DNA from: a virus
Strand: one strand, 5' to 3'
Length of the DNA stretch: 21,872 nt
Virus record (IMG/VR): IMGVR_UViG_3300027734_000341
Span: 1-21,872 of that record
Shown: positions 1-12,123 of the stretch, piece after piece
Position numbering within the stretch: position 1 is the first letter of the stretch
Layout: each line of letters begins with the position of its first letter
Notes under the pieces: generated by a model
Seen by the model: only the letters and a program-made list of their open reading frames with translations
Database searches by the model: none
Told to the model about the DNA's origin: nothing
Position numbers and translations under genes: made by a program

Positions 1-1726
1 AGGCACTATTTGCATAGTTACCTGTAGAGTTTTGACTTAGATAAGAACTGTTAGCTTGTAGATAAGCGCTGTTAGCATATGAACCAGATGTTACTGCTCT
101 CTGATCGGCAGTATTTGCAGCAGTAAATGCAGTATTAGTATGACTAATAGGATCATATCCACGAATTGATACTACATCAGATGTTAAATTTGCTTTAAGT
201 GTTGCAATAGTAAATTGATTATTTGCAATATCAATTGTATTTGTAGTTGGATCCAGTGGATATTTTTCAAACAAATAGTAAGTGTCATCTGAAGCATGTC
301 TAATAAGACCAGTATGCCAATTATTTGCATCATAATGTCCAACAAAACCAATATCAACTGTATCCAATAAATTATCTTTAGCTAATTGTATCATTGAATC
401 TTCAACGGCTAAAGTATTTACATTAACAGTTACAGTATTACCTTGAACAATTAAGTTACCTGTAATAGTTAAATCACCACTAAATGTTCCTGTTGCATTT
501 GCAAGTGCATTATTTGCTTTTGTAAATGCAGAGTTAGCATATGAACCGGCACTATTTGCAAATTGTAATCCTGTATTAGCATAACTACCTGCACTATTAG
601 CAAACTGTAATCCTGTATTTGCATAACTACCTGCACTATTAGCAAACTGTAATCCTGTATTTGCATATGAGGCAGCGCTGTTAGCAGTTTGATATGCAGA
701 GTTAGCATATGATGAGGCACTATTAGCAGTACCAATTTGAACATAATTATATACTGCATTGGCAACTAAAAATGCACTGTTAGCATATGAACCAGATGTT
801 ACTGCTCTCTGATCGGCAGTATTGGCGGCAACAAATGCACTATTAGAATATGACCCTGCACTATTTGCTGCTTGATATCCACTATTTGCATATGATGAAG
901 CACTATTAGCAGTACCAATTTGAACATAATTATATACTGCATTGGCAACTAAAAATGCACTGTTAGCATAACTAGATGCACTATTAGCAACACCATATGC
1001 AGCATTAGCATATTGACCAGAACTATTTTGACTTAGATAAGAAGCATTTGCATGAAGATAAGCACTATTAGCATATGAACTTGCACTGTTGGCAGTACCA
1101 ATCTGCGTAAAATTATTTACACTATTAGCAACTAAAAATGCAGAGTTGGCATATGAACCAGATGTTACTGCTCTTTGATCTGCGGTATTGGCAGCAACAA
1201 ATGCACTGTTAGCATAAGACCCTGCACTATTGGCATATTGATATGCACCATTAGCAAATATACCTGTTGCATTTTGACTTAAGTAAGAACTATTTGCGTG
1301 TAGATAGGCACTGTTGGCATAATCGCCAGATGTAACGGCACGTTGGTCTGCAGTTGCTGCGGCAGTAGTTGCAGTATTTGCTTTAGTAAATGCACTATTG
1401 GCATAATCGCCAGTTGTATTTTGACTTAGATAAGATGCATTGGCATGAAGATAAGCACTATTGGCATAATTACCTGTAGAGTTTTGACTTAAATAGGCAC
1501 TGTTGGCTTGTAGATAAGAACTATTAGCATATGATGAAGCAGCAGAAGCATTGGATGTTGTTACACCTAATGAAGATTCAAGAGCAAGAGGAAAACCACC
1601 TTGAGTAGAACCATCGTGAACAACTATAGTATGTTTGGTAACATCTATTGTAGCTTCAGCATACGCACCCGTGAAGGTCGATGTTTGTGCTGTATTACCT
1701 CTTCTAAATTGAACTCTTATTGACAT
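1..1726 (-). CDS. Tail fibre protein, N-terminal 575 residues (3' end outside window)
   Basis: This frame is open from an ATG at 1726 to the left edge; reading every codon found no stop. The product starts MSIRVQFRRGNTAQ and continues with an acidic 'VVHDGSTQGG' stretch, resembling the N-terminal domain of phage fibres and of the Mtd tropism protein (RRGT...GE...GDG type), which usually anchors a fibre to the virion. From about residue 60 it becomes heptad repeats (YANSAY, LHANASY, LSQNTTG, TADQRAV), interrupted at about residues 413-512 by a beta module beginning GDLTITGNLIVQGN and containing a 'VEDSMIQLAKDN...DIGFVGHYDANNWHTGL' type segment that the other fibres lack; heptads then resume to the edge. 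The ATG lies 25 bases after the previous stop, with only a weak GCGAG ribosome site. It is probably a trimeric adhesin; its receptor-binding tip is not visible. Confidence 0.88.
   Translation of the reverse strand, partial: MSIRVQFRRGNTAQTSTFTGAYAEATIDVTKHTIVVHDGSTQGGFPLALESSLGVTTSNASAASSYANSSYLQANSAYLSQNSTGNYANSAYLHANASYLSQNTTGDYANSAFTKANTATTAAATADQRAVTSGDYANSAYLHANSSYLSQNATGIFANGAYQYANSAGSYANSAFVAANTADQRAVTSGSYANSAFLVANSVNNFTQIGTANSASSYANSAYLHANASYLSQNSSGQYANAAYGVANSASSYANSAFLVANAVYNYVQIGTANSASSYANSGYQAANSAGSYSNSAFVAANTADQRAVTSGSYANSAFLVANAVYNYVQIGTANSASSYANSAYQTANSAASYANTGLQFANSAGSYANTGLQFANSAGSYANTGLQFANSAGSYANSAFTKANNALANATGTFSGDLTITGNLIVQGNTVTVNVNTLAVEDSMIQLAKDNLLDTVDIGFVGHYDANNWHTGLIRHASDDTYYLFEKYPLDPTTNTIDIANNQFTIATLKANLTSDVVSIRGYDPISHTNTAFTAANTADQRAVTSGSYANSAYLQANSSYLSQNSTGNYANSA
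717..1143 (-). repeat. Three copies of a 183-bp (61-codon) repeat in the partial fibre gene
   Basis: Copies start at 717, 900 and 1083. The first 71 bases of the first two copies (717-787 and 900-970) are identical; the third is diverged. The repeat encodes a 19-residue element (AVYNYVQIGTANSASSYAN) set among heptads. All copies stay in frame. Confidence 0.88.
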
Positions 1727-1748
1727 TTATATCTCGCTTAGTTTATTG

Positions 1749-1756
1749 TATTTATG
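1749..1756 (-). promoter_or_regulatory. Candidate T4-type late promoter (CATAAATA)
   Basis: CATAAATA on the minus strand matches the T4 late consensus TATAAATA at seven of eight bases. It overlaps the TAA stop of the 483-residue gene and lies 22 bases before the ATG of the last fibre gene. The spacing is right for a late start with a short leader. The sequence is AT-rich, so such strings also occur by chance. Confidence 0.35.
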
Positions 1757-3203
1757 AAACAAATCCATAGTCATACCTAATTGCATCAGTAAAATAGTCT
1801 AATGTTCCATAATCTAAAGTGATATCTTGAGCACCAACATACATATTACCAATAACTATTTTATTGGTTGTAGGATCAAGTCCAACTACAATACCACTTT
1901 CACCAGTTATTGTTAATACTGAATCGGCTGCAGTTGCAATAATATTTGAATAACCACTACCTGGGGTAGTAGCAATAACACTGAATGAATTTCCACTGCC
2001 ACCACCACCTGTATTTGCTTTATCATATGCAGCTTGTGCTAAAGTATTTGCAGTATTAGCTTGATTGAACGCACCATTCGCATAACTAGATGCACTATTT
2101 GCTGCGGTTCTTACCCATGTATCGGTTGCATTATTAGCGGCATTGTATGCACTGTTAGCATATGATCCAGCACTGTTTGCTGCTTGATATGCACTATTAG
2201 CATATGAACCATCGGACTCAGAACCAATATAGAATGAAGTGTTTCCATTATTTGCAGACCATTTACCAGCAGATTCAATCCATAAAAATTGTGCATTAGG
2301 TTGTATACCACGTTCAATCTCAATACCAGAATTTTCTGTTGGTGTTCCTGATTGACCTAAGTCTGCATTTAAAGTTATTATGTTATCGCCAAGATTAACT
2401 GTTATAGTATTTGCGTATACTACATTTCCTGAAACAGTTAAATTCCCCGTAATTGTGGTATCACCAGATATCGTACCACCAGAAGAATTAAATTTAGTAT
2501 TTGCCGCAGCAAAGGCACCATTGGCATAAGAACTTGCGGATGTTATGTTTGTATTTTGTTGAGCATTTACACCATAAAAATACCCATTAGCAGTATTGGC
2601 AAAAGTAAATGCCGCATTGGCTTGTATGTAAGATGAATTTGCTTGTGCAAATGAACCATCAACATTATAACCAAATTCACCAATATATCTATAACCTGCA
2701 ATAAAAATTACTTTGCTGGAAGTTAGTGATGCAGGTATCGCAGAACTACCTACAAAATTTAAAACACCTGCTTGATAATCAAACCACCATTCACCAACAC
2801 CACCAGAACCAGAATCAAATATTTGAGTTCCAGTTGATGCAGGATTTGAAGCACCAGAATTATCTACATAAACTTTTACAAAATACGTTGAACCAAATTC
2901 AGGTGGAATCCAATCAGTTAAATTTGTTTTCCAAGTAGGATATACACTACTAATTGGTGTTGATGTAGTATCTGCGGTACATTGAACTGAAGCAGTTGTT
3001 TGATATGATTGAACAATGTTTGCAACAGCCGCAGCAGTTGCGGGAATACTAGAAGCACTTTTCCATATTTTATCTGCACGATTAATTAATGGACTTGCAA
3101 TTGATTCATTACTAACACCTTTATTTGTGCTAGTTTCAGTTTTAGCAACACCAAATAATTTTTTATATAATAGATCAACTTTTTGTGCATCAGTAAAAGC
3201 CAT
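1752..3203 (-). CDS. Short tail fibre-like structural protein (483 aa)
   Basis: The N-terminus (MAFTDAQKVDLLYKKLFGVAKT, then 'SNESIASPLINRADKIWKSA') and the segment 'WIPPEFGSTYFVKVYVD...GVLNFVG...YRYIGEFG' (about residues 95-175) match an N-terminal domain I know from structural proteins of marine myophages, taken here as a virion-attachment domain. Residues about 185-240 are YANGAF-type heptads. Residues about 241-333 are the shared beta module (GDTTITGNLTVSGN ... GIEIERG ... FLWIESAGKW), followed by more heptads. A Gly/Ser linker near residue 400 leads to a small C-terminal domain of about 80 residues ending DYFTDAIRYDYGFVS. The ATG follows the previous gene's TAA directly (TAAATG), which suggests translational coupling; a GCGAG stretch lies upstream. 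With no S74 domain or large tip it may be a connector or short fibre. The fibre role is solid; partners are inferred. Confidence 0.88.
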   Translation of the reverse strand: MAFTDAQKVDLLYKKLFGVAKTETSTNKGVSNESIASPLINRADKIWKSASSIPATAAAVANIVQSYQTTASVQCTADTTSTPISSVYPTWKTNLTDWIPPEFGSTYFVKVYVDNSGASNPASTGTQIFDSGSGGVGEWWFDYQAGVLNFVGSSAIPASLTSSKVIFIAGYRYIGEFGYNVDGSFAQANSSYIQANAAFTFANTANGYFYGVNAQQNTNITSASSYANGAFAAANTKFNSSGGTISGDTTITGNLTVSGNVVYANTITVNLGDNIITLNADLGQSGTPTENSGIEIERGIQPNAQFLWIESAGKWSANNGNTSFYIGSESDGSYANSAYQAANSAGSYANSAYNAANNATDTWVRTAANSASSYANGAFNQANTANTLAQAAYDKANTGGGGSGNSFSVIATTPGSGYSNIIATAADSVLTITGESGIVVGLDPTTNKIVIGNMYVGAQDITLDYGTLDYFTDAIRYDYGFVS

Positions 3204-6200
3204 TTAATTACTCGCAGTTTCTAAGGATAAAGCAGTTACAGTTTGTCCACTAGTAAGTTTAATGCGAACATATATTTCGTTAGTTGATGTATCAGAACTT
3301 GAAACTGTACCAAATGTGCATGTCTTGCTATGTGCAGTTACGGCAGAATTTAAAGTTACAACACCACCCAAAGCGCATCCATTACTTCCATTACCTGGAC
3401 TATTTATGCCAGGTATACCTGAACCTGCATATGCAATTGACATATCTAACCATCCATTTAAAGATGATGTGGAGTCAATAGTGCTTCCAGGTAATGCAAC
3501 CCAAAGACCCGCAATTGTTCCAGTAAATTTAATATTGAATTTAGATACAGATGTTCTAATAAATCTAAACGTGAAATATTGAGAACCTGTTCTTCCAGAA
3601 CTTAAATTTGGACCTACTGGTAAATAACCAGATGAATAATTTGTTTGATCGTGTTTTAAAACAGCAGCAACAATAGTAGCACAATTTGAAGTCAACGTAC
3701 CACTTTGACTATTAAATAATGATGCACTGGCAGTATATGTTGGATTATCTGTAGTACCTGGATTTACAATTCTTGCAGCTAATCCAGAACCAGTACCTAC
3801 AGTTGAACCAAATGTAATTGTAGTTTCTTCCATTGAACTAGCGGTACCTGTTTTATATAAAACAGTATTTGCTAATGCAGTTGTAAATACTTGTGAACCA
3901 GTTAAATAACTATTGTCTACTGTTACACTTGGTCCAGTAGAAGATGAACCAAATCCTGTTGTAATAGATGATGATGTATTTACAGTTACACTACCACTTG
4001 AAACATAAAGATTTTGTGCTAATGGATATGTAATACCCACTGCAGGATATGTATTACTTGAAGGTGCTAAAAATGCACCACCAGCAGTTCCAGTAAAGAA
4101 TGTATTACTTGCTGGAAATGTATTACCACTTAGTTTAGATACGGCAACACTTAATCTAAATGTTGTTGAACTATTATAATGTGGTATCGTGCTTGAATAT
4201 GTAAATGATTCTGATAATGGTGCTATACTTGCAGATGCAAATGTTGGTGTACCTGGTGCTGCATTATCATAGAACCACGAAACAGTTGAAGTATTTGATG
4301 CACCAGAGTGTGCAATAAAAATTTCATTCCAACCTTGTGATACTGATCCAGAACCTTGGCAATCAAAACTTCTCCAAAAACCTGATGCTGCACCAGTTAT
4401 TAACGCATAGTCTTTACTATCACTGACAATTAAATCACTATATGTTCCGTTTGCAGAAGAACCTGTAAATGTAATTGCACCTGTAGCTACATTATTTTTA
4501 AATAAAGTTAATGTACCAGAATCACCTGGACCAAAATTATCAAAAGTATTTGTCGTATATGATGCCGCTCTACGAAGAGCAGTTACAACTGAACCTGCAG
4601 CAAGAGTTTTACTAGCAGTTGTAGTGTTATCTGGTTGAGTATAGTTTGTTATACGATAGGTTGTTGTCAAACTACTAATGGATAATGATGTTGCACCTGG
4701 AAATGGTGTTGGTGATGCAGGCACTAATTTACCCAATACGTTATTCAATAGAGCAAGACCATCTGTTACTTTAGTTGTTGTTGTAAGTGTAACTGCATTA
4801 CTAACTAATAATCCAACAGTATTGGATCCTAAATTAATTGTATTGCCAGTTAAACTAATACTATTGGCAGCATCATAAGCGGCTTGTGCTAAAGTGTTTG
4901 CAGTATTGGCTTTAGTAAATGCAGAGTTAGCATATGAACCCGCTGATTGTGAATATGTGCAAGCAGAATTGGCTTGTGCAAAAGCACTATTAGCATAACT
5001 AGAAGCACTATTGACAGATGTTCTTGCCCATGAATCTACAGAACCCGCTGCGGCAGTATTAGCAATATCAAATGCGGCTTGTGCTAAAGTGTTGGCAGTA
5101 TTAGCAGCAGTAAAGGCACCATTGGCATATGATGATGCAGATGTTATATTTGTATTTTGTAAATCATTAACACCATAACTATAAGTATTAATTGTATTAG
5201 CAAATGCATATGCGGAATTAGCATAACTACCTGCACTTATGGCATTTGTATTAGCTGTGTTTGCTTGAACAAAACCACTATTAGCATATGAAGAAGCAGC
5301 GTTGGTTGCATTTCTTGCCCATGCATCTACAGAACCCGCAGCAGCACTATTAGCAAGAGCAAAAGCAGAATTCGCATATGAACCAGCACTTATAGCATTT
5401 GTGTTGGCAGTATTAGCAGCAGTAAAGGCACCATTTGCATAACTAGATGAACTGTTAGCAACACCAAATGAAGAGTTAGCATAAGAACCTGATGTTACTG
5501 CTCTTTGATCTGCAGTTGCCGCATTAGTAGTTGCAGTATTGGCTTGAGTATATGCAGAGTTAGCATATGAACCAGAAGTAACGGCACGTTGATCGGCAGT
5601 ATTAGCCGCAGTAAATGCGCCGTTGGCATAACTAGATGCACTATTGGCAATACCAAATGCACCATTGGCATATGAACCTGCACTAACACCTTTTTGATCT
5701 GCAGTATTAGCAGCAGTAAAGGCACCATTGGCATAACTAGATGCACTATTAGCAACCCCATATGCAGAGTTAGCATAATTACCTGTAGAATTTTGACTCA
5801 GATAAGCAGAGTTGGCTTGAAGATATGCACTATTGGCATATGAACCATCAGACTCAGCGCCAATATAAAATAAAGTATTACCGTTGTTTGCTGACCATTT
5901 ACCCGCAGATTCAATCCATAAAAATTGAGCATTAGGTTGTGCGCCACGTTCAATTTCAATACCAGAATTTTCTGATGGTTGTGATGCTTGTGGTAAATCT
6001 GCATTAAGGGTGATAATATTATCACCAAGAGTTACTGTTATAGTATTAGCATATGTTACATTACCAGAAACAGTTAAATTACCAGTGATTGTAGTATCAC
6101 CAGATATCGTACCACCAGATGAAGAAAACTTTGTATTTGCCGCAGCAAAAGCACCATTAGCATAAGAACCTGCACTATTAGCAAACTGATAAGCGCCATT

Positions 6201-7538
6201 GGCATATGAACCTGCACTAACACCTTTTTGATCGGCAGTATTTGCAGCAGTAAAGGCACCATTCGCATAACTACTTGCACTGTTAGCAACACCATACGCA
6301 CCATTAGCATAAGAACCGGCACTTACACCTTTTTGATCGGCAGTATTAGCGGCCGCAAATGCACCATTGGCATAACTTGAAGCTGATGTTATGTTGGTAT
6401 TCTGTAACGCATTAACACCATAGAAATAACTATTGGAAGTATTAGCAAAAGAATATGCATTAGAAGAATATACATTTACTGTATTGGCAGATGCAAATGC
6501 ACCATTCGCATAACTACTTGCACTGTTAGCAACACCATATGCACTATTTGCATAAGACCCAGCATTTACACCTTTTTGGTCTGCAGTATTAGCGGCAGTA
6601 AAAGCACCATTTGCATAACTTGAAGCTGATGTTATGTTGGTATTTTGTAACGCATTAACACCATAGAAATAACCATTAGCAGTGTTAGCAAACGTAAATG
6701 CACCGTTGGCATATGAACTAGCCGATGTTATATTGGTATTTTGTAGAGCATTAACACCATAAAAATACCCATTAGCAGTATTGGCAAAAGTAAATGCACC
6801 ATTGGCATATGATGATGCAGATGTTATATTGGTATTTTGTAGAGCATTAACACCATAAAAATACCCATTAGCAGTATTGGCAAAAGTAAAGGCACCATTG
6901 GCATATGATGATGCGGATGTTATATTTGTATTCTGTAAGGCATTGACACCATAACCATACGTATTTGATGTATTGGCAAAAGTATATGCACTATATGCGT
7001 AAGTATTTACCGTGTTTGCAAATGTAAAAGCACCATTGGCATATGATGATGCGGATGTTATATTTGTATTTTGTAAATCATTAACACCATAACCATACGT
7101 ATTAGCTGTATTTGCAAAAGCATATGCACTATAAGCATATGTGTTTACAGTATTTGCAAATGTATAAGAACTATTAGCATAAGAACTTGCACTATTAGCC
7201 GCATTTCTTACCCATGTATCGGTAGCATTATTAGCAGCATTAAATGCACTATTAGCATAAGAACTTGCACTATTGGCAGCACTTCTTACCCAAGTATCTA
7301 CAGCATTATTAGCAGCATTATTAGCAGCATTAAATGCTGCATTAGCTTGTATATAAGAACTATTTGAACGATCAATATATAATTTACCACCAATAATTAT
7401 AGCACTATTAGTTGTGTTACCAATAAAAAGTGTATTACTAACGTAAGAATAAGCTAACTCTGCAACATTTAATGTAACAGGTGCAGAATTTGCTTCTGAA
7501 AATTTTATCTGTATTACTGTATTTTCGGTAGTTGCCAT
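3204..7538 (-). CDS. Large repetitive tail fibre with candidate receptor-binding C-terminal region (1444 aa)
   Basis: The N-terminus has the 'APVTLNVAELAYSYVSNTLFIGN' pattern of phage fibre attachment domains (L..GELAY.....LFIG type). Residues about 60-470 are Ala/Asn/Tyr-rich repeats, mostly of exact 7-residue period, including a 32-residue unit (GAFTFAN ... TNITSASSYAN) in near-identical tandem copies. Residues about 473-566 are the shared beta module, very similar to that of the 483-residue neighbour. More heptads follow to about 890. The last 550 or so residues are non-repetitive, rich in Ser/Thr/Gly and predicted beta, with no recognisable enzyme motif, and end in a segment containing 'FRFIRTSVSKFNIKFTG'. 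This is the best candidate in the window for host binding. No S74 domain is present. The start overlaps the upstream stop by one base (TAATG), with AAGGTGG as ribosome site. Fibre assignment is firm; the receptor role is inferred. Confidence 0.9.
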   Translation of the reverse strand: MATTENTVIQIKFSEANSAPVTLNVAELAYSYVSNTLFIGNTTNSAIIIGGKLYIDRSNSSYIQANAAFNAANNAANNAVDTWVRSAANSASSYANSAFNAANNATDTWVRNAANSASSYANSSYTFANTVNTYAYSAYAFANTANTYGYGVNDLQNTNITSASSYANGAFTFANTVNTYAYSAYTFANTSNTYGYGVNALQNTNITSASSYANGAFTFANTANGYFYGVNALQNTNITSASSYANGAFTFANTANGYFYGVNALQNTNITSASSYANGAFTFANTANGYFYGVNALQNTNITSASSYANGAFTAANTADQKGVNAGSYANSAYGVANSASSYANGAFASANTVNVYSSNAYSFANTSNSYFYGVNALQNTNITSASSYANGAFAAANTADQKGVSAGSYANGAYGVANSASSYANGAFTAANTADQKGVSAGSYANGAYQFANSAGSYANGAFAAANTKFSSSGGTISGDTTITGNLTVSGNVTYANTITVTLGDNIITLNADLPQASQPSENSGIEIERGAQPNAQFLWIESAGKWSANNGNTLFYIGAESDGSYANSAYLQANSAYLSQNSTGNYANSAYGVANSASSYANGAFTAANTADQKGVSAGSYANGAFGIANSASSYANGAFTAANTADQRAVTSGSYANSAYTQANTATTNAATADQRAVTSGSYANSSFGVANSSSSYANGAFTAANTANTNAISAGSYANSAFALANSAAAGSVDAWARNATNAASSYANSGFVQANTANTNAISAGSYANSAYAFANTINTYSYGVNDLQNTNITSASSYANGAFTAANTANTLAQAAFDIANTAAAGSVDSWARTSVNSASSYANSAFAQANSACTYSQSAGSYANSAFTKANTANTLAQAAYDAANSISLTGNTINLGSNTVGLLVSNAVTLTTTTKVTDGLALLNNVLGKLVPASPTPFPGATSLSISSLTTTYRITNYTQPDNTTTASKTLAAGSVVTALRRAASYTTNTFDNFGPGDSGTLTLFKNNVATGAITFTGSSANGTYSDLIVSDSKDYALITGAASGFWRSFDCQGSGSVSQGWNEIFIAHSGASNTSTVSWFYDNAAPGTPTFASASIAPLSESFTYSSTIPHYNSSTTFRLSVAVSKLSGNTFPASNTFFTGTAGGAFLAPSSNTYPAVGITYPLAQNLYVSSGSVTVNTSSSITTGFGSSSTGPSVTVDNSYLTGSQVFTTALANTVLYKTGTASSMEETTITFGSTVGTGSGLAARIVNPGTTDNPTYTASASLFNSQSGTLTSNCATIVAAVLKHDQTNYSSGYLPVGPNLSSGRTGSQYFTFRFIRTSVSKFNIKFTGTIAGLWVALPGSTIDSTSSLNGWLDMSIAYAGSGIPGINSPGNGSNGCALGGVVTLNSAVTAHSKTCTFGTVSSSDTSTNEIYVRIKLTSGQTVTALSLETASN
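4870..7360 (-). repeat. Heptad-repeat shaft coding region of the 1444-residue fibre
   Basis: Apart from the beta module at about 5840-6118, this stretch encodes Ala/Asn/Tyr-rich units with a 21-base (7-residue) period, such as SASSYAN, GAFTAAN, TADQKGV and SAGSYAN. Synonymous codon choice varies from unit to unit. Similar blocks lie at about 490-1550, 2020-2210, 8750-9310 and 9610-9990 in the other fibre genes. Confidence 0.85.
6658..6945 (-). repeat. 96-bp (32-codon) tandem repeats in the 1444-residue fibre gene
   Basis: Units begin at 6658, 6754 and 6850 and encode GVNALQN...SASSYAN with the adjoining TFANTANGYFY. The second and third units differ at only about seven of 96 bases; the first is more diverged. 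Related but altered units continue to about 7090, and single related elements recur near 6390 and 5150. Confidence 0.88.
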
Positions 7539-7765
7539 TAAAAAGTTCCACCTTTAATACTAGTAATTGATATTGCACCAGCACTAAGTGGTGATGATAT
7601 GTAATTGTCTGTATTTGCATCATACACTAAAACATCACCTTGAGTTTTGGTTGTTATATTAACTCCATTTAATTCAGATATGGCAACATTTGGTTTTGGT
7701 TTATAATTTGGATCTGCTATAGTTGTTCTTACAGCAGGTGTTATTCTTACACGACCTATATCCAT
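7538..7765 (-). CDS. Small tail-associated structural protein (75 aa)
   Basis: This short protein starts MDIGRVRITPAVRTT and contains 'ISELNGVNITTKTQGDVLVYDANTDNYIS'. The pattern GDVLVYDA....Y resembles the repeated 'dGdvLvyds..kW' element in phage tail fibres and baseplate-rim proteins, here as a stand-alone copy. It has no signal peptide or membrane segment. The gene is wedged between the 110-residue gene (2-base gap) and the 1444-residue fibre, whose ATG overlaps this TAA. That tight coupling suggests it is made together with the fibre, perhaps as an attachment or connector piece. I do not recognise a named T4 counterpart; the structural role rests on context and motif resemblance. Confidence 0.78.
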   Translation of the reverse strand: MDIGRVRITPAVRTTIADPNYKPKPNVAISELNGVNITTKTQGDVLVYDANTDNYISSPLSAGAISITSIKGGTF

Positions 7766-7767
7766 TA

Positions 7768-8100
7768 TTATCTCGTTACTGAAGGCAATACTGTGGCGAT
7801 TCCTTCAACAACTCTTGTCACAATATTGGTGGGTGAAGTTATTTTTAAATCATAAACATAACGACCAGCACTCAAATTTGCGGTATTAGCTGCAGTCATG
7901 CTTAAAGTAATTTCACCATTTGCTGTTCCAGTAACACTAGAATTAATTGTATATGCAGTAGAAGAATAATATGATTTTCTCATTTGAGAATTGGCACTAT
8001 ATGCATATAAATTTATAGCATTTCCTGAACTATCATCAACATTGATAGTTGTGCTAAATGTTGCACCTTGTTCTATAGTAATTTCTGAAAAAGCAGCCAA
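7768..8100 (-). CDS. Small beta-sandwich tail/baseplate protein with TTG start (110 aa)
   Basis: The product begins (M)AAFSEITIEQGATFSTTINVDD and ends VTRVVEGIATVLPSVTR. The pattern 'ITIEQGATFSTTI..DDSSGNAINL' then 'GEITLSMTAANTANLSAGRYVYDLKIT' matches a small all-beta domain common next to fibre genes in marine phages and similar in layout to the N-terminal domain of phage baseplate upper proteins (BppU-like). The start codon is TTG at 8100-8098: an in-frame stop lies four codons upstream (8113-8115), the next ATG is about 38 codons in and would delete the conserved N-terminus, and an AAGGAA ribosome site sits about six bases before the TTG. It lies 15 bases after the S74 fibre gene and just before the 75-residue gene. 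It probably forms a tail accessory or connector; no catalytic motif is visible. Confidence 0.82.
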   Translation of the reverse strand: MAAFSEITIEQGATFSTTINVDDSSGNAINLYAYSANSQMRKSYYSSTAYTINSSVTGTANGEITLSMTAANTANLSAGRYVYDLKITSPTNIVTRVVEGIATVLPSVTR

Positions 8101-8115
8101 GATTGTTTCCTTTTA

Positions 8116-11100
8116 TTATTTATTTATCTTTGATTCAAGTTCACTTACCTTGGCAGTTAATTCTTTTATTGCCTCAATTAATAATGGAACAATCTTTTCA
8201 TATTGAACAGTTTTATAATTTTCTCCAGATATACTATTACCTTCTTTATCAGTATCAAATGGAGCGGGTACGACAACTTGTGGTAATACTTTTTCTAAAT
8301 CTTGTGCAATAACACCAACTTTTATTTTGGTATCAGTATATCCATAAGATTCAGCAATTTCATTTCCTTGATACAATACACCTCTTAAAGTATTAACTTT
8401 TGATAATGCATCTGTAATTGGTGTAATATTTTTCTTTAATCTTTGATCTGAATAAAATGCAGTAACATCACCAGTAGCGGTTAAATTACCTGTGATTGCA
8501 AAATCACCAGTATATGAACCAGACATTGTTAATGTGCCAGTAGTTGTAATTGTTCCACCACTTAGTCCATTACCTGTAGCAACTGAAGTTACAGTACCTG
8601 GTTGAGCACTCGCAGCAATACCATCCAACTTACTTGCATAGGTACTTGTCATATAACCATTGACGGTTGAAGTTGCAGCTGCCATTGAAATTGCTGGTGT
8701 TAGACCACCCGATGATACAACAGGTGCAGTTCCTGTTACTGAAGTAACCGCAGTATTTGCTTTTGCATATGCACTGTTAGCATAAGAACCGGATGTTACT
8801 GCACGTTGATCGGCAGTTGCGGCATTTGTTGTTGCAGTATTAGCTTGCACAAAAGCACCATTAGCATAACTTCTTGCCGCAGTATCATTTGTATTAACGG
8901 TATTAGCCAATGCATATGCAGAGTTAGCGTATGAACCAGATGTTACTGCTCTTTGGTCTGCAGTAGCAGCATTAGTAGTTGCAGTATTTGCCTGTGTATA
9001 TGCAGAATTGGCATATGAACCAGATGTTACTGCTCTTTGATCGGCAGTATTGGCAGCAACAAAAGCACCATTAGCATAACTTCTTGAGGCAGTATCATTC
9101 GTATTAACTGTATTTGCTAATGCAAAAGCGGCATTAGCATAAGACCCCGCACTATTGGCATATTGATATGCACCGTTAGCAAATATTCCAGTTGCATTTT
9201 GACTCAAATAAGAACTATTAGCATGTAGATAAGCACTGTTGGCATATTGACCAGAACTGTTTTGAGACAAATAAGAACTATTTGCATGTAGATAGGCACT
9301 GTTAGAATATGTTTCAGAAGCAGCAGAACCTATATTACTATAGATGGTACCATCATTAGTAAATGTCCATTTATCTGTCGTTTCATTCCAAATGATAGCA
9401 GCGTTATCTGAAGTTCCTCTTTCAACTTCGATACCTGCATTTTCAGTTGGTGCAGATATTTGTGGTAAATCTGCATTTAATGTGATGATAGAATCACCAA
9501 CTTTTAATTCTGTTGTATTTACATATGTTGTTAAACCAGAAATAGTTAAATTACCAGTAACTACAACATCACCAGATACAGTACCACCAGCAGATGCAAA
9601 CTTTGTATTTGCTAATGTGTATGCTGCATTGGCATAATTGCCTGTAGAATTTTGACTTAAGTAAGCCGCATTAGCATGTAAGTATGCACTGTTGGCATAA
9701 TTGCCTGTAGAGTTTTGACTTAAATAAGCACTATTTGCATGTAAATACCCACTATTGGCATATTGACCAGAACTATTCTGTGATAAGTAAGAACTATTAG
9801 CATGTAGATATGCACTGTTGGCATAATTGCCTGTAGAGTTTTGACTTAAATAAGCAGCGTTGGCATGTAAGTATGCAGTATTAGCATATACACCTGTAGT
9901 ATTTTGACTTAGATAAGCAGCATTGGCATATGCACCACTTGTGTTTTGACTTAAGTATGCAGCATTAGCATATACACCAGCAGATGTTGCACGATTGTTT
10001 AATGTGTTTGCAGCAGATGCAGTTGCAATAATTGTTGTTGAAGTATTTGTTAAATCACTACTTAAACGACCAGAATCTAAGATTTGAAAATAAACAGTAT
10101 TTGCTGGGTCAGTTGTTAAGTCAAAATATTTAGTTGATTCATTCCAACGAATAGATGCATTTTGAGAAACTGAATTTGCTAAACTTAAACTATTGTTTGT
10201 TCTATAGATACTAAATTTACCGTCTTGATTTGGTGTTGCAATACTTAATGTTAATGCGGGTGAATTGTATACCGTATTACCATTAATTGTAAAATCACCA
10301 GCAACAGAGAAATTACCGGTAACTTGTCCAGATGTAAATGTTACTGCGCCTGCAGTTAGTGCTCCACCAACATCTGCACGACCTGTTGTTCTTAATGTTC
10401 CAGCATATACTAATCCAGTAGTATTTAAATTACCTACATCAGTATTACCTGTAACTTGTAATGTGCTATCAAGATTTGCAATACCAACAACACGTAATGC
10501 ACTATCTAAATTAGCAGTACCAGTTACTCTTAAGGTACTATCAAGGTTTGCAGCACCAGTTACTCTTAAGGTACTTGCTAAGTTTGATGCACCGGTGACT
10601 CTTAATGTGCTATCTAAATTGGCTGAATCAGTTACTCTTAAGGTACTTTCTAAATTAGCTGCACCAGTTGTTCTTAATGTTCCACTATGAGTAAGACCTG
10701 TGGTTACAAAATTAGCTGCAGTTGTATTAGAACTTGAATCTACAGTAGAGAAATCAGCACGACCTGTTGTTCTTAATGTTCCTGTATGAGTTAATCCTGT
10801 AGTCACGAAGTTACCAGAAGTTGTATTACTTGTAACATCTACAGTTGATGCAAAATCAGCACGACCTGTGCTTCTTACAGTTCCAGTGTGAACTAATCCT
10901 GCAGTTACTACATTACCTGGATTTACGTTTCCTGTTACATTAACTATTGTAGCAAAGTCAGCTTGACCAGTAGAACGTAATGTGCCTGTGTGTGTTAATC
11001 CTGCAGTTACTACATTACCCGAAGTTGTGTTACCAACAACATCCACTGTGGTTGCAAAGTCAGCACGACCAGTAGAACGTAATGTTGCAGTATGTGTAAG

Positions 11101-12123
11101 TCCAAGTGTATTGAGATTACCTGAAGTTGTATTTGCAACAACATTTAACGTGCTATCTAAATTAGCAGTACCAGTAACTCTCAAGGTACTATCTAGATTT
11201 GCACCACCAGTTACTTTTAAGGTACTTGCTAAGTTTGATGCACCGGTGACTCTCAAGGTACTATCTAAGTTAGCACCACCGGTTACTCTCAAGGTACTAT
11301 CTAAGTTAGCTGCGCCAGTTGTTCTTAAGGTACTATCTAAATTAGCACCACCAGTTACTCTAAGTGTACCATCAACATTAGCAGCAGTAGTTACTCTTAG
11401 ATTGCCTGTTTGTGTTGTATTTGTAGTTACAGTATTACCTGTATTTAAGTTACCAAATACTGTACCATTTGTTCTAACATTTAATGTAAGTGTATTAGCA
11501 ACAGCACTTAAATTTAAACTTGTACCAACAATATTTGAAGAATATGTTGCAACACCAACAACATCTAAAGTATCATAGATTGTTGATCTTGTTGATTTTG
11601 AATTTGTTGTTACCATATCTGTCAAGTATGCAGTATTAATACTTGCAGAACCTACATTGACAAATACTACATTACCAGTACCTGTCATACTTAGTTTGTT
11701 TACAATAGATGCATTTCTACCTATTGCAATATCATTATTTGTTGAAATATTACTTGTTGTAATATTATTAGTTACTTGTAGATTTAAGTTTGCTAAAACA
11801 TTGTTAGCAACGTAGAGTGCAGTTCCTTTACCATATATGAAAGTATTTGCACCGACAGTTAAATTACCAGTTTGTGAAGATTGAGAACCAAGTGTTATAC
11901 TTTTACCAACTTCAAGATCAGTAGAAAATAAAACTGCATTAGCAACTGTTAATGCAGTACCATTTGCAGTAATTGATAAATTAGAATTACCTGAAAGTGT
12001 AAAAGTACCATTTGTCTTTGAATAGTTGCCAGTTTCTATCGTATTTAATGCATTAGCAGACAGATTGGTTTGAATTCGCCATTCATCTATTGTATTATTT
12101 TTGGTGATATTAGTTATTGCCAT
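8116..12123 (-). CDS. Tail fibre with C-terminal Peptidase_S74 intramolecular chaperone (1335 aa)
   Basis: The N-terminus contains 'TIDEWRIQTNLSANALNTIETGNY', a pattern seen at the start of T4-like cyanophage fibres. Residues about 245-330 and 478-561 are 12-residue repeats (TLRVTGGANLDS type); between them are five 33-34-residue repeats (TLRSTGRADFAT ... GLTHTG). These look like beta-helical shaft. A beta domain at about 600-710 is followed by YANSAY/LHANAAY/LSQNSTG heptads, the shared GDVVVTGNLTISG beta module (about 845-938), and further heptads. Residues 1225-1335 are a Peptidase_S74-type domain: SDQRLKKNI, then GVIAQDLEKVLPQVV, ending in a coiled coil (LIEAIKELTAKVSELESK). In this family the domain assists trimer folding and then cleaves itself off just before the Ser of SDxRLK, using a Ser-Lys pair; both residues are present. 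The start has only a weak ribosome site. Confidence 0.92.
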   Translation of the reverse strand: MAITNITKNNTIDEWRIQTNLSANALNTIETGNYSKTNGTFTLSGNSNLSITANGTALTVANAVLFSTDLEVGKSITLGSQSSQTGNLTVGANTFIYGKGTALYVANNVLANLNLQVTNNITTSNISTNNDIAIGRNASIVNKLSMTGTGNVVFVNVGSASINTAYLTDMVTTNSKSTRSTIYDTLDVVGVATYSSNIVGTSLNLSAVANTLTLNVRTNGTVFGNLNTGNTVTTNTTQTGNLRVTTAANVDGTLRVTGGANLDSTLRTTGAANLDSTLRVTGGANLDSTLRVTGASNLASTLKVTGGANLDSTLRVTGTANLDSTLNVVANTTSGNLNTLGLTHTATLRSTGRADFATTVDVVGNTTSGNVVTAGLTHTGTLRSTGQADFATIVNVTGNVNPGNVVTAGLVHTGTVRSTGRADFASTVDVTSNTTSGNFVTTGLTHTGTLRTTGRADFSTVDSSSNTTAANFVTTGLTHSGTLRTTGAANLESTLRVTDSANLDSTLRVTGASNLASTLRVTGAANLDSTLRVTGTANLDSALRVVGIANLDSTLQVTGNTDVGNLNTTGLVYAGTLRTTGRADVGGALTAGAVTFTSGQVTGNFSVAGDFTINGNTVYNSPALTLSIATPNQDGKFSIYRTNNSLSLANSVSQNASIRWNESTKYFDLTTDPANTVYFQILDSGRLSSDLTNTSTTIIATASAANTLNNRATSAGVYANAAYLSQNTSGAYANAAYLSQNTTGVYANTAYLHANAAYLSQNSTGNYANSAYLHANSSYLSQNSSGQYANSGYLHANSAYLSQNSTGNYANSAYLHANAAYLSQNSTGNYANAAYTLANTKFASAGGTVSGDVVVTGNLTISGLTTYVNTTELKVGDSIITLNADLPQISAPTENAGIEVERGTSDNAAIIWNETTDKWTFTNDGTIYSNIGSAASETYSNSAYLHANSSYLSQNSSGQYANSAYLHANSSYLSQNATGIFANGAYQYANSAGSYANAAFALANTVNTNDTASRSYANGAFVAANTADQRAVTSGSYANSAYTQANTATTNAATADQRAVTSGSYANSAYALANTVNTNDTAARSYANGAFVQANTATTNAATADQRAVTSGSYANSAYAKANTAVTSVTGTAPVVSSGGLTPAISMAAATSTVNGYMTSTYASKLDGIAASAQPGTVTSVATGNGLSGGTITTTGTLTMSGSYTGDFAITGNLTATGDVTAFYSDQRLKKNITPITDALSKVNTLRGVLYQGNEIAESYGYTDTKIKVGVIAQDLEKVLPQVVVPAPFDTDKEGNSISGENYKTVQYEKIVPLLIEAIKELTAKVSELESKINK
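8119..8451 (-). other. Peptidase_S74-type self-cleaving chaperone domain
   Basis: Codons 1225-1335 of the fibre gene encode SDQRLKKNI, where the first Ser and a following Lys correspond to the family's cleavage and catalytic pair, then a core with 'KVGVIAQDLEKVLP' and 'YEKIVPLLIEAIKEL', and a C-terminal heptad coil. The expected cut lies between Tyr1224 and Ser1225, giving a mature fibre chain of about 1224 residues and a released chaperone of about 12 kDa. Assignment by motif is strong; cleavage itself is inferred from the family. Confidence 0.9.
8121..8128 (-). promoter_or_regulatory. Candidate T4-type late promoter (GATAAATA)
   Basis: GATAAATA matches seven of eight bases of the T4 late consensus. 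It lies in the last codons of the S74 fibre gene, 20 bases before the TTG start of the 110-residue gene. A transcript starting about six bases downstream would still contain the AAGGAA ribosome site. This is plausible but unproven in an AT-rich context. Confidence 0.33.
10440..10700 (-). repeat. 36-bp (12-codon) beta repeats, second block of the S74 fibre
   Basis: About seven tandem copies encode TLRVTGAANLDS-type units. In fibre proteins such short repeats with alternating hydrophobic and small residues usually form a beta-helical shaft. One 37-base stretch (10566-10602) is identical to 11217-11253 in the first block. Confidence 0.87.
10658..11164 (-). repeat. 102-bp (34-codon) repeats between the two 36-bp blocks
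   Basis: The GRADF-type element recurs with matching points at 10757, 10859, 10961 and 11063, exactly 102 bases apart. A shorter 99-base unit lies at the low-coordinate end, where the protein reads 'FSTVDSSSN'. Each unit encodes TLR.TGRADFA...V.GNTTSGN.VT.GL.HTG. Confidence 0.88.
11145..11390 (-). repeat. 36-bp (12-codon) beta repeats, first block of the S74 fibre
   Basis: About seven to eight tandem copies encode TLRVTGGANLDS-type units at residues about 245-330. The order of variant units (ASNLAS, then GANLDS, then TANLDS) is the same as in the second block, pointing to duplication of a multi-unit segment. Confidence 0.87.

Follow-up and report, generated by a model that had tools for sequence, protein, structure and literature searches.

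The long tail fibre of T4 is described as a serial structure of gp34, gp35, gp36 and gp37, in which gp34 is proximal and gp37 distal (PMC5537660). In BPP-1, Mtd is located at the distal end of the fibres, presumably through its beta-prism (PMC10743442; also PMC3567102), and the fibre gene bbp9, directly upstream of mtd, was found to encode a product ending in ..ADLGGIA. In Pelagibacter phage HTVC008M, the region gp056-gp066 includes gp8, a DUF4815/VrlC protein, a protein of about 75 aa, an S74-type fibre, a 112-aa protein and several fibres.

The DNA analysed here (the window, 21,872 bases) is one entire virus record with every gene on the minus strand. The genes are arranged in the order 648-aa open frame, gp8 (441 aa; phrog_438, E 2.7e-92), 2073-aa DUF4815 protein (E 6e-51), 76-aa coiled coil, P0004 (1335 aa), P0009 (110 aa), P0008 (75 aa), P0003 (1444 aa), P0002 (483 aa) and P0001, which is partial in the window (Table 1) and whose homologue is complete in the near-identical contig L010 (909 aa). 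A further gene follows the P0001 counterpart in that contig (L010:14238-14432), beginning fibre-like with collagen-like G-x-y repeats, which brings the cluster to at least five fibre genes. No relatives at the nucleotide level were found among cultured phages. As gp8 is about 31% identical to its cyanophage and pelagiphage homologues and the layout equals that of HTVC008M, the virus appears to be a distant T4-like myovirus of the Kyanoviridae/HTVC008M kind, an assignment made from homology and gene order. HTVC008M differs in that its gp8 is only 31% identical and in carrying neither the conserved domain pair nor the A-class anchors described below. A P0009-type gene is present in HTVC008M and in all close relatives; the relatives L011 and L014 carry gp13-18 in order, with gp13-14-15-terminase-sheath after the fibre genes.

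Table 1 Features of the fibre gene cluster in the window.
Feature	Coordinates	Strand	Remarks
P0004, 1335-aa fibre gene	8116..12123	-	Peptidase_S74 and module A matches
Module A copy in P0004, about residues 851-940	9304..9573	-	
P0009, 110-aa gene	7768..8100	-	phrog_3304/phrog_1084 type (L-shaped tail fibre assembly); starts fibre cassette
P0008, 75-aa adaptor gene	7538..7765	-	ends in tag ..IKGGTF
GGTF C-terminal tag of P0008	7541..7552	-	
P0003, 1444-aa fibre gene	3204..7538	-	
A-class N-terminal anchor of P0003	7383..7538	-	NTVIQIKFSEANSAPVTLNVAELAYSY..
Module A cassette in P0003, residues 459-578	5805..6164	-	almost the same as P0002 copy
C-terminal domain of P0003, residues 905-1444	3207..4826	-	phrog_8578; conserved, proposed joint half
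P0002, 483-aa fibre gene	1752..3203	-	
N-terminal A1 domain of P0002, residues 1-178	2670..3203	-	phrog_9417; conserved, other proposed joint half
Module A cassette in P0002, residues 226-345	2169..2528	-	
C-terminal tag of P0002, ..RYDYGFVS	1755..1772	-	DYG class
P0001, partial fibre gene	2..1726	-	cut by window end
B-class N-terminal anchor of P0001	1577..1726	-	Mtd N-terminal beta-prism family (Pfam Mtd_N)
Module in P0001	167..478	-	first half common, second half is variant B

The initial annotation of the window had recognised four fibre genes in one cluster and described them as a kit sharing heptad shafts and a beta module, and all of this was borne out. With P0002 as query, the module of about 90-120 residues was recovered where it had been placed in P0003 (81% identity, E 5e-70), P0004 (51%, E 3e-37) and P0001 (51% over 61 residues, E 6e-10); the match to P0001 covers the first half only, the second half being a different variant, here designated module B (DIGF.G.Y). 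Sequence searches with module A gave no convincing solved structure, and a hit to ATP synthase alpha (E 0.1) was taken as chance. The cassette of about 120 residues in P0002 and P0003 has a DNA identity of about 83% (73-96%) inside and of 20-40% on either side, and so is a recombination cassette with sharp edges and not a product of slow divergence of the whole gene. The autocorrelation of alanine at lag 7 was 0.37, 0.22, 0.37 and 0.13 for P0001, P0002, P0003 and P0004, above the maxima of 500 shuffles (0.14, 0.13, 0.09 and 0.09, respectively) in every case. Pfam Alanine_zipper matches two of the four proteins, and the model of P0002 has helices at 333-357 and 362-397. P0004 is composed of its own N-terminus, 12-residue beta repeats, an alanine-heptad shaft, module A and a C-terminal S74 intramolecular chaperone (Peptidase_S74 at residues 1225-1284, Pfam E 5.5e-15), and it is mainly through this end that it matches gp37-type PHROGs. 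The 12-residue repeats (VTGAANLDSTLR type) are numerous, precede the heptad shaft at about 10324-11436, and represent a second type of shaft within one fibre.

Four scans, with P0002, an alignment of A1 and two anchor alignments, returned over 240 loci. Among the 168 unique fibre-like ORFs at the loci of the P0002 and A1 scans, a single module A accompanies an A-class anchor in 19 cases and a single module B in 24; for B-class anchors the counts are 7 with module A and 7 with module B, and for the A1 domain 6 and 9, respectively. These counts support a kit in which the same modules stand behind every type of anchor. In close relatives the A1 domain forms a stand-alone gene of 186-187 aa; in L014 it is a 186-aa gene devoid of a shaft, and the C-terminal part of a 346-aa gene of the same cluster (..DYGFITDSTNVIYDYGTI) resembles that of P0002. 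P0002 is therefore a chimaera, in which the 186-aa stand-alone gene is combined with a shaft, a module and a tail that come from another fibre gene. Four to five fibre genes at this position are the norm of the family (HTVC008M), and the kit reading is correct but ordinary for it. In one relative, L072, a fibre gene of 3308 aa or more contains four modules and about 131 heptad motifs.

It had also been stated that anchors and tips differ among the four genes. Their N- and C-termini do differ, but the C-terminal domain of P0003, which is its most conserved part, and the N-terminal A1 domain of P0002 are conserved and constantly adjacent. Each of the two matches 52 isolate records with an identical organism breakdown, covering Caulobacter, Brevundimonas, Agrobacterium, Sinorhizobium and Salicola phages, and in the isolate pairs inspected the two types of domain lie in neighbouring genes, even in jumbo phages and in siphophages of the phiCbK type, which are unrelated. 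In the IMG/VR loci (80+ partly redundant viral contigs) the domains are neighbours without exception, with a constant order and a gap of -1 to 24 nt, and in the window the phrog_8578/phrog_9417 pair is likewise present and adjacent. In CcrColossus, gp087 carries the P0003-type domain (tip), gp088 A1 followed by a tip and gp089 A1, so that the domains alternate and are fused like dominoes, and Atu_ph07 has alternation and fusion of the same pattern. As the two domains are conserved, constantly adjacent and chainable, they look like the halves of a joint; a tip that varies and an anchor to the baseplate would not be expected to look like this.

A confident beta-rich AlphaFold model was obtained for the P0003 domain (pLDDT 91.7). 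Compared with PDB folds it gave weak, partial Ig-type matches only, with no close solved fold, and among viral models it matched its own family and, at 13-16% identity, a small number of remote families. No PDB match was found for the P0002 model, and no convincing solved structure was found by sequence for the P0003 domain, the A1 domain or the A anchor. The adjacent homologues in phiCbK and its relatives (Dolichocephalovirinae) are gp73 and gp74 (32% and 35%); these phages are siphophages, and the genes of the pair are short, without alanine shafts and beside the capsid genes. Neither gp73 nor gp74 is among the eight virion proteins detected in phiCbK. The pair (L056:11533-14184) stands between the capsid genes and gp76, a proposed head filament, and may represent its attachment parts.

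At the remaining junctions, short motifs at the very end of one protein were found to go with the class of anchor that begins the next. GG[TS][FY] ends occur in 73 unique proteins of four to five non-homologous families, against 0.16 expected from the internal frequency of the motif. The codons of this tag vary synonymously, and the next gene may lie up to 143 nt away with its own ribosome site. In a first set, GGTF preceded an A-class anchor in 53 cases and a B-class anchor in none, and DYG preceded a B-class anchor in 10 and an A-class anchor in none. In an independent set, consisting of loci fetched by the anchor alone, 55 of 56 distinct ends upstream of A-class anchors ('NTVIQLK'-type) were GGxF; upstream of B-class anchors 42 of 69 were D[YFLWC]G and none GGxF. 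Of the 27 B-class ends off the strict pattern, 9 finish in DGGTY plus one or two residues and about 4 have a D.G motif nearby. After clustering of the upstream proteins, by which alone kinship was treated, the association has p 1e-22 at 60% and 1e-4 at 40%, and fully collapsed families leave a small sample for the test. Within the A1 family an anchored gene comes next after 28 of 32 tagged genes and after none of 16 untagged ones (p 2e-9), and where A1 proteins are extended to 464-1237 aa the tag is still at the very end. In the sequences compared, the class of the end-tag is statistically tied, at the protein level, to the class of the next anchor.

Cultured isolates illustrate the B-class side of the rule, with DFGSI in CRP-3, DFGTL in S-TIP37, NLGGLA in AH02, DYGSVA in Vibrio 1.021.A, DLGEL in Minorna and DLGSVA in HTVC008M, where gp063 bears this end ahead of the B-anchored gp064. 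D69 (DDGGLS) fits weakly, and S-SSM7, S-CAM1, S-CAM3 and K437b do not fit. A-class anchors, common in environmental viral contigs, were matched by none of 50,697 cultured phage records. No clear case of a fused tag-plus-anchor protein (Rosetta stone) was found; the search yielded only long phiCbK-like genes with internal anchors. Other terminal motifs were noticed along the way. Ends of the type ..A(F/M)AIALG, seen at L011:8036-8620, L066, L078, L038 and others, close fibre genes that stand directly before gp13-like genes or genes of about 110 aa of the MANTFKNSF..VG type, and are perhaps a third tag class. Downstream of the untagged A1 genes in L096, L098 and L099 the fibres start with MAVTRIKNNQITDSTIT; this may be a further class of anchor, for which ..TWKR..GGY would be the partner ends.

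All junctions in the window agree with the tag-anchor rule. P0004 has an untagged end and P0009 no A or B anchor; P0009 is untagged and P0008 is without such an anchor. P0008 ends in GGTF ahead of the A anchor of P0003, the tip of P0003 meets the A1 domain of P0002, and P0002 ends in DYGFVS ahead of the B anchor of P0001, while the complete P0001 of L010 has an untagged end and is followed by a gene with neither anchor. Given this fit at each junction, it is on balance probable that the cluster specifies one separate S74 fibre (P0004) and one serial fibre, P0008-P0003-P0002-P0001, joined at the ends. The 75-aa adaptor P0008 would bear the 1444-aa P0003, which would bear the 483-aa P0002, and this in turn the 909-aa P0001 as the outermost part. 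At one kind of joint the conserved C-terminal domain of P0003 would bind the A1 domain of P0002; at the other the short C-terminal tag of one protein would dock in the anchor at the N-terminus of the following one: ..GG(T/S)F would enter an A-class anchor where P0008 meets P0003, and ..D(Y/F/L)G(S/T)(L/I/V) a B-class anchor of the Mtd beta-prism type where P0002 meets P0001. The shafts and modules between the joints would act as interchangeable spacers. From the statistical tie we infer both the physical docking and the order within the particle; the tail of P0002 has low confidence in the single-chain model.

The proposed structure is like the T4 long tail fibre in that different proteins are joined serially end to end. 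It is unlike it in that P0001-P0003 have no sequence relation to it (no match to the gp34-gp37 family in Pfam or PHROGs), and in that its joints would be a large conserved domain pair and short C-terminal tags, its bodies alanine-zipper shafts with reusable modules. The B-class anchor links it to BPP-1: the N-terminus of P0001 matches Pfam Mtd_N (E 4e-10; Mtd residues 1-50), the B-class profile matches the Mtd N-terminal beta-prism in PDB 1yu0 (E 2.2e-25), and the end of Bbp9 (..DLGGIA) is of the same tag type as that of P0002. What the anchor carries here, unlike in Mtd, is a long fibre with a shaft and not a C-type lectin; no C-type lectin match was found in P0001 or its 909-aa form, and no DGR was seen in the window. 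P0001 thus shares only the anchor with Mtd and is not an Mtd.

The initial annotation had suggested that several related fibres could widen host range or build a branched fibre, each presumably held by its own N-terminus. Parallel, partly redundant fibres of this kind on the baseplate would suit the four distinct N- and C-termini within one cluster, the shafts and modules they have in common, and the several fibre genes carried by relatives and HTVC008M; the inseparable P0003 and P0002 domains, the prediction of the next anchor by the end-tag and the occurrence of P0002 as a 186-aa shaftless gene in close relatives make the arrangement unlikely. No evidence for alternative fibres that widen host range was found here, and the junction rule favours one serial fibre of three beside the separate S74 fibre. 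The association of tags with anchors might also arise without docking, if recombination at gene ends moved the end of one gene together with the start of the next and the tag had another job, such as a trimer cap or a chaperone signal. Mosaicism is strong, as this would require, and the sample shrinks on family collapse. We nevertheless regard linkage of this sort as quite improbable, given that the tags occur on non-homologous bodies and keep their terminal place when the body changes, that synonymous codon variation shows selection on the protein, and that the BPP-1 fibre known to bear Mtd has the tag. The tight packing of the genes raises the question of whether GGTF is merely an embedded Shine-Dalgarno sequence (GGAGG) of the next gene; this is effectively ruled out by codons that are mostly GGC/GGT then GGN, and by the separate AAGGAG-like sites present in gaps that reach 143 nt.

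A different matter is where on the particle a serial structure would be placed. In relatives the cassette directly precedes T4 gp13-14-15-like genes, which is the position of wac in T4, and the homologues gp73 and gp74 of phiCbK have capsid genes on one side and the candidate head filament gp76 on the other; a fibre of the neck or head, similar to a whisker or head filament, is accordingly possible, with a probability a little lower still than that of linkage at gene ends. In the window, on the other hand, the cassette comes after gp8, DUF4815 and the S74 fibre, and P0009 resembles the L-shaped tail fibre assembly family. Judged from gene order, the baseplate is the most likely site for the serial fibre P0008-P0003-P0002-P0001.

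What is new here is the two joints, above all the tag-anchor rule; no description of a C-terminal docking tag or of such a rule was found in the open-licence literature. A wider proposition is plausible but tentative: in many tailed phages the next anchor may be specified by a limited repertoire of C-terminal peptide tags, among them GGxF/Y and DYGxL/I, so that the order of fibre subunits, Mtd-bearing fibres included, could be read from gene ends. Such a rule would account for the free exchange of bodies between fibres whose ends remain compatible, and would allow the composition of fibres to be predicted from metagenomic contigs. It also points to the residues by which Mtd of BPP-1 may attach to its fibre, for which the literature gives 'presumably the beta-prism' (PMC10743442).
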